Positions 4,722 to 56,160 of a DNA stretch of 64,000 nt are shown in pieces (positions within the stretch are counted from its first letter, which is position 1; each line of letters begins with the position of its first letter). The notes below the pieces were generated by a model. That model did not search any database. It saw nothing but the letters and a program-made list of their open reading frames with translations, and was not told the origin of the DNA. Source of the stretch: Flavobacteriales bacterium (GTDB taxonomy: Bacteria; Bacteroidota; Bacteroidia; UBA10329). The stretch spans positions 1-64,000 of the forward strand of contig WGMW01000002.1 of NCBI GenBank assembly GCA_016124845.1. Reading direction: 5' to 3'. The translations under genes were made by a program, and so were the position numbers.

Positions 4722-7144
4722 GCCGACTCTACCGTTCGTTGGGAGAAGTTACTTCGGTCAGCCAAACCGACTCAGGTTTGGAATTGACAAACGCGGAGGC
4801 AATCGTCAAATTGACGGTTTACAGCGATTCGGTCATTCGTGTTTATGTCGAGAAGAAGGAGAACGAGCTCCGCGAATTGCCCTATGCGGTAATTGCCGAG
4901 CCTCTTGAAACAGCATTTGAAGTGAAGATTACGGAAGATGTGGTATTTCTCAAAACCGCCAAGATCCGTGTGCTTCTTTCTCGAAAACCGCTACGCATTT
5001 CGTTCTCTGACCTGAATGGCAAATTCCTGAATGAAGAGGATTGTGCTTTGGGAACGGGTTGGATCGGAGACACAGTTGCCACGTATCGAGCGTTGAAAGA
5101 AGGTGAACGATTCATTGGTCTCGGAGAAAAAACGGGCCCATTGGATCGCGCTGGAAACGCCTACACACACTGGAATACGGATTTTTTCGGTTACCCGACC
5201 AATGCGGATCCGATATATCTGAGCACTCCATTTTACATGGGGGTTCATGCCGATGGTCACTATGGTATTTTCCTGAACAATTCGCATCGGTCAGTGGTCA
5301 ACTTTGGAGCGAGTAATGACCGTTTTTCGTCCATTCAGGCCGAAGGTGGTCCGATGGATTACTTTTTCTTCCACAATGATTCGGTGACTAAAATGGTCTC
5401 TGATTATTCGTGGCTGACGGGAAGAATTTCCTTGCCACCGAAGTGGGCGTTGGGTTTTCAGCAATGCCGCTACAGTTATTATCCCGATAAGGAGGTTTTG
5501 AATTTTGCGCGCACGTTCCGAGAAAAGCAGATCCCTGCGGATGTCATCTACCTTGACATCCATTACATGCAGGATTACAAGGTTTTCACTTTCGATGAAG
5601 AGCGCTTTCCGAATCCGAAAGAGATGACTGCGGAATTGGAAGCGCAAGGCTTCAAAACGGTGGTGATTGTTGATCCGGGCGTGAAACGCGAGAAAGGCTA
5701 TGAGCTTTGTGATGATGGTGTGAAAAAGGACGTGTTTGTCAAATATCCTGATGGCGAATTGCATGCCGCACAGGTTTGGCCAGGCTGGAGTTATTTCCCC
5801 GATTTCACAATGGATTCAGCAAGAAATTGGTGGGCAGACCATATGAAATTCTACACCGACAATGGTATCCGTGGTTTTTGGAACGATATGAACGAGCCCG
5901 CGAGTTGGGGACAGATGACGCCTGATCTGATCGAGTTCGGTTGGGAAGGGGAGAAGACTACCCATCGCGAAGCACGGAACGTTTATGGTGGATTGATGTC
6001 GCGTGCCACCAAGGAAGGTGCCGACAAGTATTTGAATGGAAAACGCCCGTTGATGCTTACGCGTGCTGGTTTTTCTGGCGTGCAACGTTATGCCGCTGTT
6101 TGGACGGGCGATAATGTGGCTTCGGATGAACACATGATGGCGGGCGTCCGCCTGCTCAATAGCATGGGAATGACGGGAATCCCATTTGCGGGTTATGATG
6201 TGGGTGGATTCGTGGATGAAGCTTCACCAAAACTTTTTGCCCGCTGGATTTCCATAGGGGCTTTCAGTCCGTTTTTCCGTGCGCACAGTATGATCGGGAC
6301 GCGGAATGCAGAGCCGTGGACGTTCGGTGAAATAACTGAAGCCATCGCTCGTAATTATATCAATCTGCGCTACCGATTGATGCCGATGATCTATTCGGCC
6401 ATGTACCGCGCTTCACAGGATGGAATGCCGTTGGTGCGTTCGTTGGCCATGCTTCATCCGACTAATGAAAAAGTGTATGAATCGGCATACGAGAACCAGT
6501 ACATGTTCGGTGATTCGCTGCTCGTCTGTCCCGTGGAAAGCTCCAAGGAATTGGTTCGCGTTTACTTGCCCGAAGGCGATTGGTACGAACTGCTGACGGA
6601 CAAGCACTACACAGGAAATCAGGAAGTGGTGGTCGATTGTCCGATCGAGAAATTGCCCGTTTTCGTCAAACGTGGTGTGCCACTATTAGAGCAAAGTCTG
6701 GTTCAATCGACATCCGAAAAACACGATGGTGTTTTACGATTGCATGTTTGGTTCAAAGCGGAAGGAACGGCTTTGCTTTACGAAGACGATGGCGAATCGT
6801 ATGGCCATTTGGAGGGCAAATTCAGCACGCGGCAAATAACCTGTGATTGCCCAAACAACCTTATTCTTTTCGGAGAACAGGAAGGCGATTTTGCTTCAGA
6901 GTTTGATCGGATTCGAGTGATTTGGCACGGTTTCGAGGATCGGAAAATCGTTTCTGTCACCGTTCGCAATTCGCAGCTCGGACCTCGCGACTCTGTTCAC
7001 AAATGGGTGGAAACAATACCGAATTTCGATCCATTGGGCGAAAGCGTAACGGAATATTCGAGTAAGGTTTTTACCGTGGAGTTTGAGAATTCCTCTGAAG
7101 CATTTGAACTTACTTGGGAAAGTGAATTGATAGAACGCGGATGA
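4718..7144 (+). CDS. Glycoside hydrolase family 31 alpha-glucosidase
   Basis: This 808-residue GH31 enzyme most likely releases glucose from the non-reducing ends of maltooligosaccharides. Visible are an N-terminal beta-sandwich domain, FIGLGEKTGPLDRAG (near 135), the barrel strand PPKWALGFQQCRYSYY (near 240), the nucleophile motif GFWNDMNEPASW (near 390), the acid/base region RAGFSGVQRYAAVWTGDN (near 450) and PFAGYDVGGF, followed by C-terminal beta domains. No signal peptide is seen, so it probably acts in the cytoplasm or is exported by an unrecognised route. It overlaps its neighbours by ATGA at both ends. Confidence 0.93.
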   Translation: MSRLYRSLGEVTSVSQTDSGLELTNAEAIVKLTVYSDSVIRVYVEKKENELRELPYAVIAEPLETAFEVKITEDVVFLKTAKIRVLLSRKPLRISFSDLNGKFLNEEDCALGTGWIGDTVATYRALKEGERFIGLGEKTGPLDRAGNAYTHWNTDFFGYPTNADPIYLSTPFYMGVHADGHYGIFLNNSHRSVVNFGASNDRFSSIQAEGGPMDYFFFHNDSVTKMVSDYSWLTGRISLPPKWALGFQQCRYSYYPDKEVLNFARTFREKQIPADVIYLDIHYMQDYKVFTFDEERFPNPKEMTAELEAQGFKTVVIVDPGVKREKGYELCDDGVKKDVFVKYPDGELHAAQVWPGWSYFPDFTMDSARNWWADHMKFYTDNGIRGFWNDMNEPASWGQMTPDLIEFGWEGEKTTHREARNVYGGLMSRATKEGADKYLNGKRPLMLTRAGFSGVQRYAAVWTGDNVASDEHMMAGVRLLNSMGMTGIPFAGYDVGGFVDEASPKLFARWISIGAFSPFFRAHSMIGTRNAEPWTFGEITEAIARNYINLRYRLMPMIYSAMYRASQDGMPLVRSLAMLHPTNEKVYESAYENQYMFGDSLLVCPVESSKELVRVYLPEGDWYELLTDKHYTGNQEVVVDCPIEKLPVFVKRGVPLLEQSLVQSTSEKHDGVLRLHVWFKAEGTALLYEDDGESYGHLEGKFSTRQITCDCPNNLILFGEQEGDFASEFDRIRVIWHGFEDRKIVSVTVRNSQLGPRDSVHKWVETIPNFDPLGESVTEYSSKVFTVEFENSSEAFELTWESELIERG

Positions 7145-52214: not shown

Positions 52215-52690
52215 ATGGAAGGGAAGATAGAGTATCGTGTTGTTTACCGCGAGCCGCATCGGCATTTCGTGGATTTTGAATTGATGATTACAGGCATTTC
52301 GCAGTCCAAATTGCAGTTGCAATTGCCAGCTTGGCGTCCGGGCCGGTATGAGTTGGGCAACTTTGCCAAGAACGTGCAGCGCTTTGCCGCTTTCACCATC
52401 AATAATGAACCTCTAACCTTCCGTAAACTCACCAAAGACCTTTGGGAGGTCGATTGCGATGGTCACCAAAAGGTGAAGGTCGCCTACAACTACTTCGCCA
52501 ACGAACTCAATGCAGGTAACACCTTTGTAGACCACAGCCAACTGTAGGTCAATCCTGTAAACTGCTTCATGTTTGTACCCGACTGGGTTGACCGCGCAGC
52601 AACCGCCACGCTCGACATACCCAAGGGCTGGCAGGTGGCCTCAGGGATGAAAGCAACTACCCGCGCACTTCTCGATACACCCTTCCACTT
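52215..52690 (+). pseudogene. M61-family aminopeptidase, N-terminal remnant
   Basis: The frame starts MEGKIEYRVVYREPHRHFVD and follows the beta-rich N-terminal domain of M61 glycyl aminopeptidases (LQLPAWRPGRYELGNFAKNV, KVAYNYFANELNAGNTFVD). A TAG at 52545 stands where family members have an aromatic residue (DHSQL-stop-VNPVNCFMFVP). The frame continues with M61-like sequence (PKGWQVASGMKAT) until it runs into interspersed repeats near 52660-52690. The catalytic HExxH domain is absent; a full protein would need about 400 more residues. The gene is dead. Confidence 0.8.
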
Positions 52691-52691
52691 C

Positions 52692-52725
52692 GTGGCTGCT
52701 GAGCCTGTCGAAGTGCTCAGGCCAC
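52692..52725. repeat. GCCTGTCGAAG-type hairpin repeat
   Basis: GTGGC...GAGC and GCTC...GCCAC arms surround CTGTCGAAGT. This belongs to the common 'TTCGACAGGCTCAG' class of bacterial intergenic hairpins. It lies at the break point of the M61 remnant. Confidence 0.55.
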
Positions 52726-52733
52726 TTAGAGTA

Positions 52734-52797
52734 CCAAAACCTCGCACGTCTATTGCAGGGCGGCTGTTACCCAAGACGCTATCTTTAACGTCACATG
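52734..52797 (+). repeat. Cassette-head repeat, copy 1 (degenerate)
   Basis: The copy contains CCAAAACCTCGCACGTC, TATTGCAGGGCGGCTGTTAC and CTATCTTTAACGTCAC. It shares the first half with copies 2 and 3; the palindromic end CCTAACGT...ACGTTAGG is decayed. The start codon of the next gene lies at its right edge. Confidence 0.7.
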
Positions 52798-53139
52798 GAT
52801 CAAGAAACGGCTCATTATATAGTTGAACACTATCGTTCGCTCATGATCGAAAAAGAGAAGAGGGCTCAACGCCATCATTTCAGTACGGTCAAAATAGGCG
52901 ATGAAGCAAGTGAGGCAAGGCAACGGGTCTATCAAAAGATGTTCTGGTTGTCAAACGACCCCGAAATTCTGGCTTTGCTTGATGGTGGGTATGAACGGTT
53001 CGAGATCCATACGGCCTCCCGCATCCTGTCAGAACATGAAGATGAGGTATTCCTGAATCATTGTCCAAAATGTGGACGACTTGCAAGGACGCCAAAAGCA
53101 AAGCAATGCCGTTACTGTGGCAATGACTGGCATGGATAG
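52795..53139 (+). CDS. Small protein with C-terminal zinc ribbon
   Basis: The protein has 114 residues. The N-terminal two thirds are helical and charged (MDQETAHYIVEHYRSLMIEK, ARQRVYQKMFWLSNDPEILA). The last 25 residues hold CPKCGRLARTPKAKQCRYCG, a four-cysteine zinc ribbon. No signal peptide; cytoplasmic. The family is unknown to me. The first of three small genes each headed by the same repeat. Confidence 0.72.
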   Translation: MDQETAHYIVEHYRSLMIEKEKRAQRHHFSTVKIGDEASEARQRVYQKMFWLSNDPEILALLDGGYERFEIHTASRILSEHEDEVFLNHCPKCGRLARTPKAKQCRYCGNDWHG

Positions 53140-53205
53140 AATCTGTTTCACTGGTTTAAGATCTCCATCCGCTTCAGGATATTGCCCTATACAACTCAGG
53201 TAGCG

Positions 53206-53238
53206 AGACCTGCGAGGTTTCCAAAACCTCACAGGTCT
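53206..53238. repeat. AGACCTGCGAGGTTT hairpin repeat
   Basis: AGACCTGCGAGGTTT, CC, AAAACCTCACAGGTCT form a near-perfect 15-bp stem. Hairpins of this sequence are widespread in Bacteroidota genomes. Its right arm is the left part of cassette-head copy 2; copies 1, 3 and 4 keep only the right arm. Confidence 0.75.
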
Positions 53239-53291
53239 TTTGCAGGGCGGCTGTTTCCTAACGTCTTATCTTTAGCGGGAAACGTTGAGGG
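53222..53291 (+). repeat. Cassette-head repeat, copy 2
   Basis: The copy contains CAAAACCTCACAGGTCTTTT, GCAGGGCGGCTGTTTCCTAA and CGTCTTATCTTTAGCGGGAA, ending ACGTTGAGGG. It includes a -7-like box TATCTTTA and the arms CCTAACGT/ACGTTGAGG. The start codon of the next gene is 8 bases beyond. Confidence 0.78.
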
Positions 53292-53298
53292 TTATTAA

Positions 53299-53658
53299 AT
53301 GAAACGACATCTTACCATCTTCTTAACGGTGTTAGTTTCTCCAGTATTCGGACAGGAATTGCGGAGTGACATAGACACGATTTATCATTCTGTCGACTCC
53401 ACAGTTGTGAAGGTTTTAGATTATGTGGACGGAGAATTAGCTGGCGAGTATTTCGGTTGCTTTACGGAAGCAATTGAAGAAAGGGTAAGCAAAAACGGAC
53501 GTGGGAGAAAGGCCCAAAAACAGCTACGACATAGAATGACTGCAATTTGGGACTTGAAAAAATATGACAAATGGGAAATTGCTCATCCTCCTCCGACAAC
53601 TACTGACGGGGCGAAAACGGAATTTGGAGGAATATCAATCGTGGATAAAAGAAATTAA
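53299..53658 (+). CDS. Small secreted protein, unknown
   Basis: The protein has 119 residues with signal peptide MKRHLTIFLTVLVSPVFGQ. The mature part is charged (SDIDTIYHSVDSTVVKVLDY, ERVSKNGRGRKAQKQLRHRM) with no cysteines beyond one and no motif I know. Base composition is AT-richer than the glucan locus. Headed by cassette-head repeat copy 2. Confidence 0.6.
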   Translation: MKRHLTIFLTVLVSPVFGQELRSDIDTIYHSVDSTVVKVLDYVDGELAGEYFGCFTEAIEERVSKNGRGRKAQKQLRHRMTAIWDLKKYDKWEIAHPPPTTTDGAKTEFGGISIVDKRN

Positions 53659-53705
53659 AAACAACCCCCAACCCCCACTAAACCTAATGTGTGCGATAGT
53701 GCATG

Positions 53706-53727
53706 GAGACGCGATGCATCGCGTCTC
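53706..53727. repeat. GAGACGCGA palindrome
   Basis: GAGACGCGATG and CATCGCGTCTC form a perfect 22-bp palindrome. This is a common intergenic hairpin in Bacteroidota and cyanobacteria. It lies in the gene-free tail of the second cassette-like unit. Confidence 0.75.
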
Positions 53728-53820
53728 TACATGTTCTGTGCTGTCCGTGCGTGGGTCAGTCCGAGTGTCCGCCACAAGCGGACGTATCGAGGACCGTGGG
53801 CAGCTATACCCGCGCACTCC

Positions 53821-53903
53821 AAGTGACCCATGTCCCAAACCTCGCACGTCTATTGCAGGGCGGCTGTTACCTAACGTATTATCTTTAGCGGGAAACGTTA
53901 GGG
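53821..53903 (+). repeat. Cassette-head repeat, copy 3
   Basis: The copy contains CCCAAACCTCGCACGTC, TATTGCAGGGCGGCTGTTAC and CTAACGTATTATCTTTAGCG, ending GGAAACGTTAGGG. The arms CCTAACGT and ACGTTAGG pair perfectly around 17 bases that contain the -7-like box TATCTTTA. The start codon of the next gene is 8 bases further on. Confidence 0.8.
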
Positions 53904-53910
53904 TGTAATC

Positions 53911-54636
53911 ATGAAATACCTTTTAGCAAAGCTGCTTTTGTTAATTGCAATATCAGTTTTTGGACAGGAAAGAGAGTTGCATATACCCATCAAACAAAAT
54001 GGGGATACCATTCCTTGGTACGACATGCAGATGAAATTTGTATCGATACTAGGACTGGAACCTTTGCAAAGCACATCTTCACATTTGGCCTTTCGGATTT
54101 GGACGGACAAGCAGGTAATTGAAATCAATGAATATCCAGGACACCTAAGTGGACGAATAATTAGTTGGGCGATAGAATACTCCTTTGAGAAACAGAGTAC
54201 CATTGGACCAGTTAGATTTACCATTGACACACTTCCAGAGGTTCAAACAAGCTTGGCCAAGAACTTGATAAAATCCTCTGATATTAGGAAAGTTCCTGAT
54301 GAACGTTCAATTCCAAATTGGCTACAAGGTTATGACGGGGTGACGTATTATATTGAAGATGCTGATTCATCCTCCTATTCATTTAAATCGTATTGGGAAC
54401 CCGAAACACAAGGCTCTTTGGTTGAAGCGCTATTGGTAGACTCGCTTATAAAGAAACTATGTAGAGTTGTCGAGGCAAAGTCATACTGGACAAAATTTGA
54501 GGATGTGTTACCCTTTGTGTGTTATCAGTCAGCAGGACCGTTTGTTACTTGCTCACGAAAGATGTTGAACTATGGAACACGTAGACAATGGCGTAAAACA
54601 AAAAGGAAATCAAAACGAGAAAAAGCTGATAATTAA
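53911..54636 (+). CDS. Secreted protein with basic tail, unknown
   Basis: The protein has 241 residues with signal peptide MKYLLAKLLLLIAISVFGQ. The mature part is mixed alpha/beta (LHIPIKQNGDTIPWYDMQMK, LAFRIWTDKQVIEINEYPGH), has three cysteines, and ends in a strongly basic tail (RRQWRKTKRKSKREK). No family recognised. It is AT-rich compared with the flanking core genes, which suggests transfer. Headed by cassette-head repeat copy 3. Confidence 0.65.
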   Translation: MKYLLAKLLLLIAISVFGQERELHIPIKQNGDTIPWYDMQMKFVSILGLEPLQSTSSHLAFRIWTDKQVIEINEYPGHLSGRIISWAIEYSFEKQSTIGPVRFTIDTLPEVQTSLAKNLIKSSDIRKVPDERSIPNWLQGYDGVTYYIEDADSSSYSFKSYWEPETQGSLVEALLVDSLIKKLCRVVEAKSYWTKFEDVLPFVCYQSAGPFVTCSRKMLNYGTRRQWRKTKRKSKREKADN

Positions 54637-54720
54637 CTACCCTTAAGGTTCACTTCTCGATACACGCTTCGATTACTCGAACCGACCGCAGGGAGCTCAT
54701 GGCCGAAGGACATTACTTAG

Positions 54721-54757
54721 TGACCCATGTCCCAAACCTCGCAGGTCTTTTGCAGGC
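54721..54757 (+). repeat. Cassette-head repeat, copy 4 (truncated)
   Basis: TGACCCATGTCCCAAACCTC continues as GCAGGTCTTTTGCAGG and then breaks off into the end of the nuclease gene on the other strand. The palindromic promoter half is missing. Upstream of it, CTTCTCGATACAC repeats sequence seen before copy 1. Confidence 0.65.
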
Positions 54758-54768
54758 CAGATCACACC

Positions 54769-56160
54769 TCATCCATCAAACTCCGGCAGTATCACCTTCT
54801 TATCGGTAATGCGGAAACTGAGGCGGTAAAAATCGATGTTGTCCTCTATCCAAGGGTCCATGGCCTTCCATTCCCAAAAGAGGTCGTTGCTCACCATCAG
54901 GCAATTGTTGCGTTTTACGTGTGCGATCACAAACACATCGGCACTGGTGCCGCTGGGCACTTCAAAGTAATCCACGCTGTCGGCAAAGGCATCCAACGCC
55001 ACGGGGTCGTCTATCCGGTGGCGGAGTGAGGCATCCACGATCACCATGATGTCCTTGAACCCGCGCCTCTTGAGGTCGTCCATCATACGTTGCAGGTTCT
55101 CCACCTTGGGCACGCTTCTGTGGTTGCCATGCGAGTTGTGCGCCACATTGCTGCCATCCAGCACCACTTGGCGTTCCTGCACCGCGCGGGTGGCAAACAC
55201 CTCCCTGTCGTGGTGGTAAGTGCCGAACTTCTTAATGTCGGCATTGGTGCGCAGGAACTGTAGCAGCGCCTTTCGGTCGCGCAGTTGCAGGGTAAACCAG
55301 TTGCGCAGCATCTTGGAGGCAGGATCCTGATACAGTTCAATGTCCTTTTCCAGCCGCCTTTGTATCTGATCCACGGTCACCTCCTTCTTTTCGGGCAGGC
55401 GCGAGAGCAGTTGCAGCAGCACCCGCGCGTCATGCTTCAGGTCGGGGGCGTCCATCAGGTCCAGGTTCAGTTTACTGCGGAACTCCGAGCGCGAGAAGCA
55501 TTCCGCCTCCTTGGCCTCCTGCCATTCTTTGGCGTTGATGAACCCTCCCTGTCTTCCGGCCTCAAAGTCGGCAGCAGTGGTATAGCCCTGTTCGGTGGCC
55601 GTGCGGTAGTCGGCCGCCAGCGTAAAACCCTTCTCCAGCGCCACCTGCAGCTCAAACCAATTGGTAAAGCCCGCATCCTTTCCGTAGCGGTAGAGGTCGT
55701 ACGGATTGGCCATGGCGGGCAGTTCCACCTTCAGGCGGCCTTCCTCCACCATCTTCACATAATCGGGGTAGCCGTCCTCGTAATGCTCATCCACCAAGGC
55801 CTTGTAGGTCTCCGGGTCGCTGAGTTCAGAACCTACCGAAAGCTGGTAGGCCTCCCATGTTTCAAACCCCTTTTCGGTGGCATCATAGTACGTGGCCGCA
55901 TCGCCAAAACCCTTTTCTCTGGCGGTGCGGTAGTCGGTCAGTTGGTGGTAGCCCTGTGCATCCACCGTAAGCAGCCCACCTTTATGGCTTATGCCGAAGG
56001 CGGTAATGGTTCCATGCTGCTCAAAACAATAGATGCTGGTAACCACATGGTCCTCTGCAAAACGCAGAAATTCCTCCAGGTCCAGCAGTTCTATCTGCAG
56101 TTCGGCCTTGGTAAGCTTGGCGCGGTAGTGGCGCCACTTGTTGTCGGTGCGTTGGCTCAT
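54769..56160 (-). CDS. Regnase-like NYN/PIN-domain protein with Gly-Phe/Tyr repeats
   Basis: The protein has 463 residues. The last 140 match the Zc3h12a/Regnase type of PIN-like RNase: VVLDGSNVAHNSHGNHRSVP with the first Asp, MVIVDASLRHRI with the second, GTSADVFVIAHVKRNNC with the third and LMVSNDLFWEW with the fourth, so the metal-binding acidic set looks complete. The middle (about 85-230) is a run of short repeats of the form Y-x-x-A-x-x-x-GF/GY (TDYRTAREKGFGDAATYYDA, ADYRTATEQGYTTAADFEAG). An RNA-cleaving role is likely; the target is unknown. It is the third gene of a three-gene operon, 1 bp after the second. GC content is clearly higher than in the cassette-like genes beside it. Confidence 0.78.
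   Translation of the reverse strand: MSQRTDNKWRHYRAKLTKAELQIELLDLEEFLRFAEDHVVTSIYCFEQHGTITAFGISHKGGLLTVDAQGYHQLTDYRTAREKGFGDAATYYDATEKGFETWEAYQLSVGSELSDPETYKALVDEHYEDGYPDYVKMVEEGRLKVELPAMANPYDLYRYGKDAGFTNWFELQVALEKGFTLAADYRTATEQGYTTAADFEAGRQGGFINAKEWQEAKEAECFSRSEFRSKLNLDLMDAPDLKHDARVLLQLLSRLPEKKEVTVDQIQRRLEKDIELYQDPASKMLRNWFTLQLRDRKALLQFLRTNADIKKFGTYHHDREVFATRAVQERQVVLDGSNVAHNSHGNHRSVPKVENLQRMMDDLKRRGFKDIMVIVDASLRHRIDDPVALDAFADSVDYFEVPSGTSADVFVIAHVKRNNCLMVSNDLFWEWKAMDPWIEDNIDFYRLSFRITDKKVILPEFDG

Follow-up and report, generated by a model that had tools for sequence, protein, structure and literature searches.

A short, partly decayed array of probable integron-type cassettes in a freshwater Bacteroidota genus

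The window, the whole stretch of 64,000 nucleotides analysed, very probably contains three integron-type cassettes in a short array that is partly decayed and is one of many at scattered chromosomal positions; the host draft genome comprises 4.36 Mb in 65 contigs. One complete and three damaged attC sites are present, and the region is filed as a CALIN, having at least two clustered attC sites without IntI; a complete integron, with IntI and attI, was not found. With three of its four sites damaged, the array looks largely immobile at present. The initial annotation had likened the region to integron cassettes, and this likeness is borne out by site structure, array layout, cassette-end complementarity and differing contents at shared positions, but its accompanying claim of a palindrome too short for attC is wrong, and that of a promoter in every unit is not shown.

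The array starts where a peptidase pseudogene breaks off. The 5' part of an M61-type peptidase gene (52215..52690, plus strand), recognised from Pfam M61_N (E 4e-26) and from the sequence, carries an in-frame TAG at 52545-52547 and lacks its 3' part, and the peptidase homology fades near 52660-52690, where the repeats and the cassette array begin. All parts of the array lie on the plus strand. The first site, attC1 (52734..52794), is decayed to a 3' half with TATCTTTA and a degenerate R' box, plus an inserted AAACCTCGCA repeat. It is followed by the ORF of cassette gene 1 (52795..53139, 114 aa), whose product has a zinc-ribbon-like C-terminus, CxxC...CxxC, with an NCBIfam zinc-finger match at only E 0.045. 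attC2 (53183..53291) has a good 3' half, with the R' box GTTGAGGG at 53284, and a 5' half replaced or decayed by an inserted repeat. Cassette gene 2 (ORF 53299..53658, 119 aa) and cassette gene 3 (ORF 53911..54636, 241 aa), both with a signal-peptide-like start, flank the complete site attC3 (53663..53904), whose boxes read CCCAAC (R''), CCACTAAACCTAATG (L''), TTATCTTTAGCGG (L') and GTTAGGG (R'). This site reaches 242 bp because its hairpin loop is enlarged by repeats that include a 22-bp palindrome (53706-53727). The terminal attC (54637..54756) is decayed and cut, an R''-like CTACCCTTAAG being followed by repeat pieces seen also within other attC loops, and its 3' half is absent. The cassette region ends at a chromosomal gene with an NYN/Zc3h12a ribonuclease domain (54769..56160, minus strand; Pfam E 5e-14), which has a homologue (48%) in one congener, with no attC adjoining there. 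A covariance search of the region, proposed in the initial annotation, finds attC3 over the full model 1-132 (44.1 bits, E 1.5e-11) and attC2 weakly (10.8 bits, E 0.53), with no match for attC1 or the terminal attC. None of the three window proteins belongs to a Pfam family, and an Rfam search of the cassette region returned nothing of note.

The repeat first noticed in this region exists, with copies at about 52734-52790, 53220-53290 and 53833-53905 and a cut copy at 54719-54756; its AAACCTCRCANGTCTWTTGCAGG part occurs in four copies in the window against 0.00 expected (100 shuffles), and the three small genes do begin just 3' of copies 1-3, at 52795, 53299 and 53911. It is a composite: the site proper is GGCTGTTACCTAACG...TTAGCGGGAAACGTTAGGG, and AAACCTCGCA...GCAGG is another repeat, which has inserted into the loop; by DNA search, the second part (GGCNGTTNCTAACGYMTTATCTTTAGCGG..) is found elsewhere in the same genome without the AAACCTCGCA part, and copy 4 consists of the inserted repeat and decayed remains only. 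In terms of an attC-type site, the repeat makes up the 3' half; the 5' half comes after the stop codon of the gene that precedes the site. The inverted arms CCTAACGT/ACGTTAGG reported for copies 2 and 3 are exact in copy 3, but copy 2 ends in ACGTTGAGG. The palindrome of about 35 bp described as the unit arises from chance pairing of part of the internal stem with an outer arm (inner-stem CCTAACG with outer-arm CGTTAGG), the true partners lying 100-240 bp upstream. Its judged shortness came from seeing the 3' half alone, as the sites normally span 125-135 bp, and 242 bp in the window. The supposed promoter box, TATCTTTA, is the hairpin L' arm in one of three site families and is conserved because it pairs with L''; a promoter is neither shown nor needed.

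An attC is an imperfect inverted repeat with R''/L'' and L'/R' boxes, an unpaired central spacer and a variable terminal structure, and sites of the genus show the inverted repeat, both pairs of boxes, the spacer and the variable terminal structure in alignment, folds and covariance model. Elsewhere in the genome the layout reads ..CCAAC-AA-CCACTAAACCTAATGCGTGCG ... CTAACGCATTATCTTTAGCGG-AAACC-GTTGG.... Eight sites, from which the covariance model was built, align over 125-135 bp as one family with 88% mean identity; in this alignment 98% of the cells of the L''/L' helix are paired, and the R''/R' arms also pair. There is so little variation in the L stem that base-pair covariation within one family was not above that of shuffles. 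DNA folds were better than those of shuffles (mean z -3.3, 48 sites), and the bottom strand was the more stable in 31 of the 48 sites (Wilcoxon p 0.0014). Three stem families are distinguished by the cores CTAAACCTAATGCG, GCCTAAAAGTATTGCG and CTATNAAAATAGGGCG. Textbook R boxes read RYYYAAC/GTTRRRY; here the AAC/GTT ends are constant, and many R' boxes read GTTGT.. or GTTGGC.., not GTTRRRY. In textbook attC sites the bottom-strand L'' arm also carries extra-helical bases; these are not evident here because the L stems are mostly symmetric, with a central mismatch and, in some type 1 sites, one extra base. In two hybrid sites (L086 7000-7132 and L105 86-219) the 5' and 3' halves come from different stem families; homologous recombination could account for this, as could misassembly in the case of L105, which lies close to a contig end. 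A compact attC-like site of about 57 bp, CCCCAACAAAAACTAATGCCAAC...TTTAGCCAAACCGTTGCGG (L087 about 5550-5640; G000:C49 near 98.5 kb), ends an array at a boundary gene.

Each unit comprises one gene and then one attC. A single strand of the site folds into a long hairpin and, in the proposed mechanism, recombines there, with the crossover held by the outer R''/R' arms after the G of GTT, recognition provided by the L''/L' stem and the loop left free to vary. The unit would leave as a circle with its own two ends paired, and the circle would re-insert beside another attC. We infer that this is single-strand recombination of the bottom strand, with the crossover at that point and an integron integrase as agent. 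If a unit is excised as a circle by a cut after the G of GTT, its own two arms should match, and not the neighbouring arm in the linear site. For 28 units whose two bounding sites lie within 2.6 kb of each other, compared at six positions beyond the constant GTTG, arms matched at 5.32 of 6 positions within the unit against 2.61 within the site. Shuffled units gave 2.31 ± 0.27 with a maximum of 3.54, and the observed level was reached in 0 of 20,000; the unit match exceeded the site match in 25 of 28 cassettes, with the reverse in one, and matches at unit ends commonly reach 10 bases. On these sequence comparisons, the matching cassette ends are interpreted as the footprint of circle excision and re-insertion. 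For gene 2 of the window, the arm before (GTTGAGGGTTATT, 53284) and the arm after (53660-53672) agree at 11 of 13 positions; 17 arms from other cassettes match this stretch at 10 positions at most, but 174 of 20,000 shuffled arms attain 11, so the end match taken from the window by itself is no more than suggestive.

Gain or loss of single units, named earlier as a check, is indicated at two shared positions where congeners differ in their cassettes. At one array end, G000:C15 and G004:C16 have the same bounding genes (orthologues of 368, 376 and 394 aa; 48-76% identity), and G000:C15 has an additional 141-aa cassette gene between attC and boundary. At the other, G000:C49 and G002:C13 have a 479-aa boundary gene in common (90% identity) and different cassettes. 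The window locus matched G002 only in single genes, and this comparison was unusable for gain or loss.

Across the genus sample of nine genomes, all drafts, the covariance search gave 27 distinct sites in host-genome loci and 46 in the loci of relatives, including 32 in one congener; these counts, taken from searches and fetched stretches with opposite-strand matches of one site removed, are lower bounds. In G001, G006 and G008 the search found no sites at E 0.01. L098 and L101 hold arrays of 7 and 8 sites, all in a single direction, and 50 cassette ORFs follow sites in the orientation of the site, beginning a median of 17.5 bp past it; the refuting finding named earlier, a repeat mostly away from gene starts, is thus not borne out. 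Many contigs stop a few hundred bases or less from an attC (C8, C13, C19, C20, C41, C42, C43 and C49 of G000); the assembly breaks at the sites, so that the real arrays are probably longer than assembled and under-counted. The majority of 51 cassette proteins belong to no Pfam family; the matches obtained comprise sorting-signal proteins, C5 DNA methylase, NYN, RNase_T, GNAT, DUF433 and AraC-type regulators.

Outside the genus, one genome of the class (G060) holds a single site. The IMG/VR phage contig IMGVR_UViG_3300005613_000097 (L149 2299-2960) carries one solitary cassette, with a 149-aa ORF, matching ends and an attC of the genus type. The neighbouring phage gene is encoded at 55 loci, this contig included; among the 33 scanned with the model, attC was present only in this contig and in none of the other 32, and related phage sequences were too divergent to align for an empty insertion site. 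No attC was found in INPHARED phages or PLSDB plasmids, and IMG/VR yielded neither the two other attC families, nor the longer type 1 core, nor cassette protein 3. Matches to a 20-base core in 14 Nostocales genomes were set aside as chance because all lie in one conserved coding stretch.

Inserted palindromic and other short repeats occur in attC loops in the window (53663-53904) and elsewhere (L029 12565-12850; L093 761-964; L094 3338-3542; L091; L101 4641-4806). Attachment site attC3 of the window and the C42 site have 186 bp of enlarged body in common (91%), the C8 and C41 sites 158 bp (94%), and two C43 sites and one in another species (L101) 102-142 bp (about 90%). The genes preceding these shared bodies differ wherever the gene is readable, and one marked attC body therefore occurs with different genes; the attC may have been copied to a new gene, or homologous recombination may have taken place, two hybrid sites being present. 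Removal of the loop (VTS) from VCR sites barely alters recombination (PMC2727003), and such tolerance fits the repeat insertions in that part of the genus sites.

The enzyme was sought among the proteins of the genus. No protein of the nine genomes reaches the TIGR02249 cut-off for integron integrase, no attI was identified, and the IntI-specific insertion seen in true IntI is absent from all recombinases recovered. Within the class, one IntI occurs in 395 genomes and complete integrons are rare; the 3.9-kb stretch of the class member with IntI (G146) holds no site of the model. A tyrosine recombinase elsewhere had been named as something to look for; those common to the genus are XerC-like and XerD-like. 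XerA-like tyrosine recombinases of 425 aa with an N-terminal extension (L117 and L118, in G002 and G004) score 218.8 and 209.2 bits, just short of the 220 bits required for the XerA family, and were rejected as the enzyme, not being seen in the attC-bearing G000 and G003. As none was found in the genus, the moving enzyme is most likely an IntI that either worked in trans, arriving for instance on incoming DNA, or has disappeared since.

A possible but doubtful version of the main reading holds that only a remnant integron is left, with old, fixed cassettes on which no enzyme acts any more. Lack of IntI and the decay of three of the four window sites fit this, and CALINs have been proposed as degraded integrons (PMC9024848), but near-perfect 10-bp end matches, differing congener contents at shared positions and the phage cassette point to movement within the lifetime of the genus. 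That Bacteroidota have an integron-like system driven by a recombinase other than IntI, with a recognition code of gene-specific arms of about 10 bp and few extra-helical bases or none, is unlikely. That such a recombinase, for example XerC/XerD of the host or a different tyrosine recombinase, moved the present cassettes on attC-like hairpins is rather more doubtful still: only XerC- and XerD-like proteins are conserved genus-wide, while attC looks well kept in some species, and the arms of about 10 bp with few or no extra-helical bases would suit it, but these proteins also occur in the attC-free G001, G006 and G008, the XerA-like protein has the distribution given above, and the layout is that of an integron. 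Chance landing of a spreading palindromic element of REP or MITE type upstream of small genes, as a mobile promoter, is highly improbable, for although repeat parts (AAACCTCGCA..., CTCGATACACGC...) recur in varied contexts like such elements and TATCTTTA resembles a promoter box, those parts are loop insertions, the attC core is found without them, in one orientation, in tandem and with gene-specific matching ends, and the end test speaks against this reading, which gives no reason to expect matching ends across a whole gene.

The integron-type reading places the system among known kinds. CALINs, defined in PMC9024848 and discussed in PMC8618304, have three described origins, namely off-target insertion by an IntI encoded elsewhere, loss of intI and separation by rearrangement (PMC8618304), and exogenous IntI can still move their cassettes (PMC9668308). 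Like CALINs, the genus arrays are tandem and uniformly oriented, with one gene per attC and no IntI nearby; unlike them, they belong to a genus in which no IntI was found at all, with sites over many contigs, three lineage-specific stem families and enlarged loops. Sedentary chromosomal integrons of the VCR type likewise have sites of about 130 bp with a large variable terminal structure and many near-identical copies per genome, but in the genus neither integrase nor attI was found, the arrays lie at several positions and the gene-specific arms are long. The phage contig recalls phage CALINs (PMC9892861) in carrying a cassette with a genus-type attC, and differs in that its cassette is solitary and its attC belongs to the genus's own family. 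The system is thus known in kind and is a variant by its lineage, a freshwater Bacteroidota genus, by the genus-wide absence of an integrase, by its long gene-specific arms and by its tagged loops.

How a new gene gains its attC is an open question of integron biology, and enlarged loops common to unlinked sites, which carry the same inserted repeats behind different genes, are natural tags that would let one ask it. As IntI is rare in the class, yet this genus holds dozens of cassettes, a moving cassette pool may be possible without an encoded integrase.
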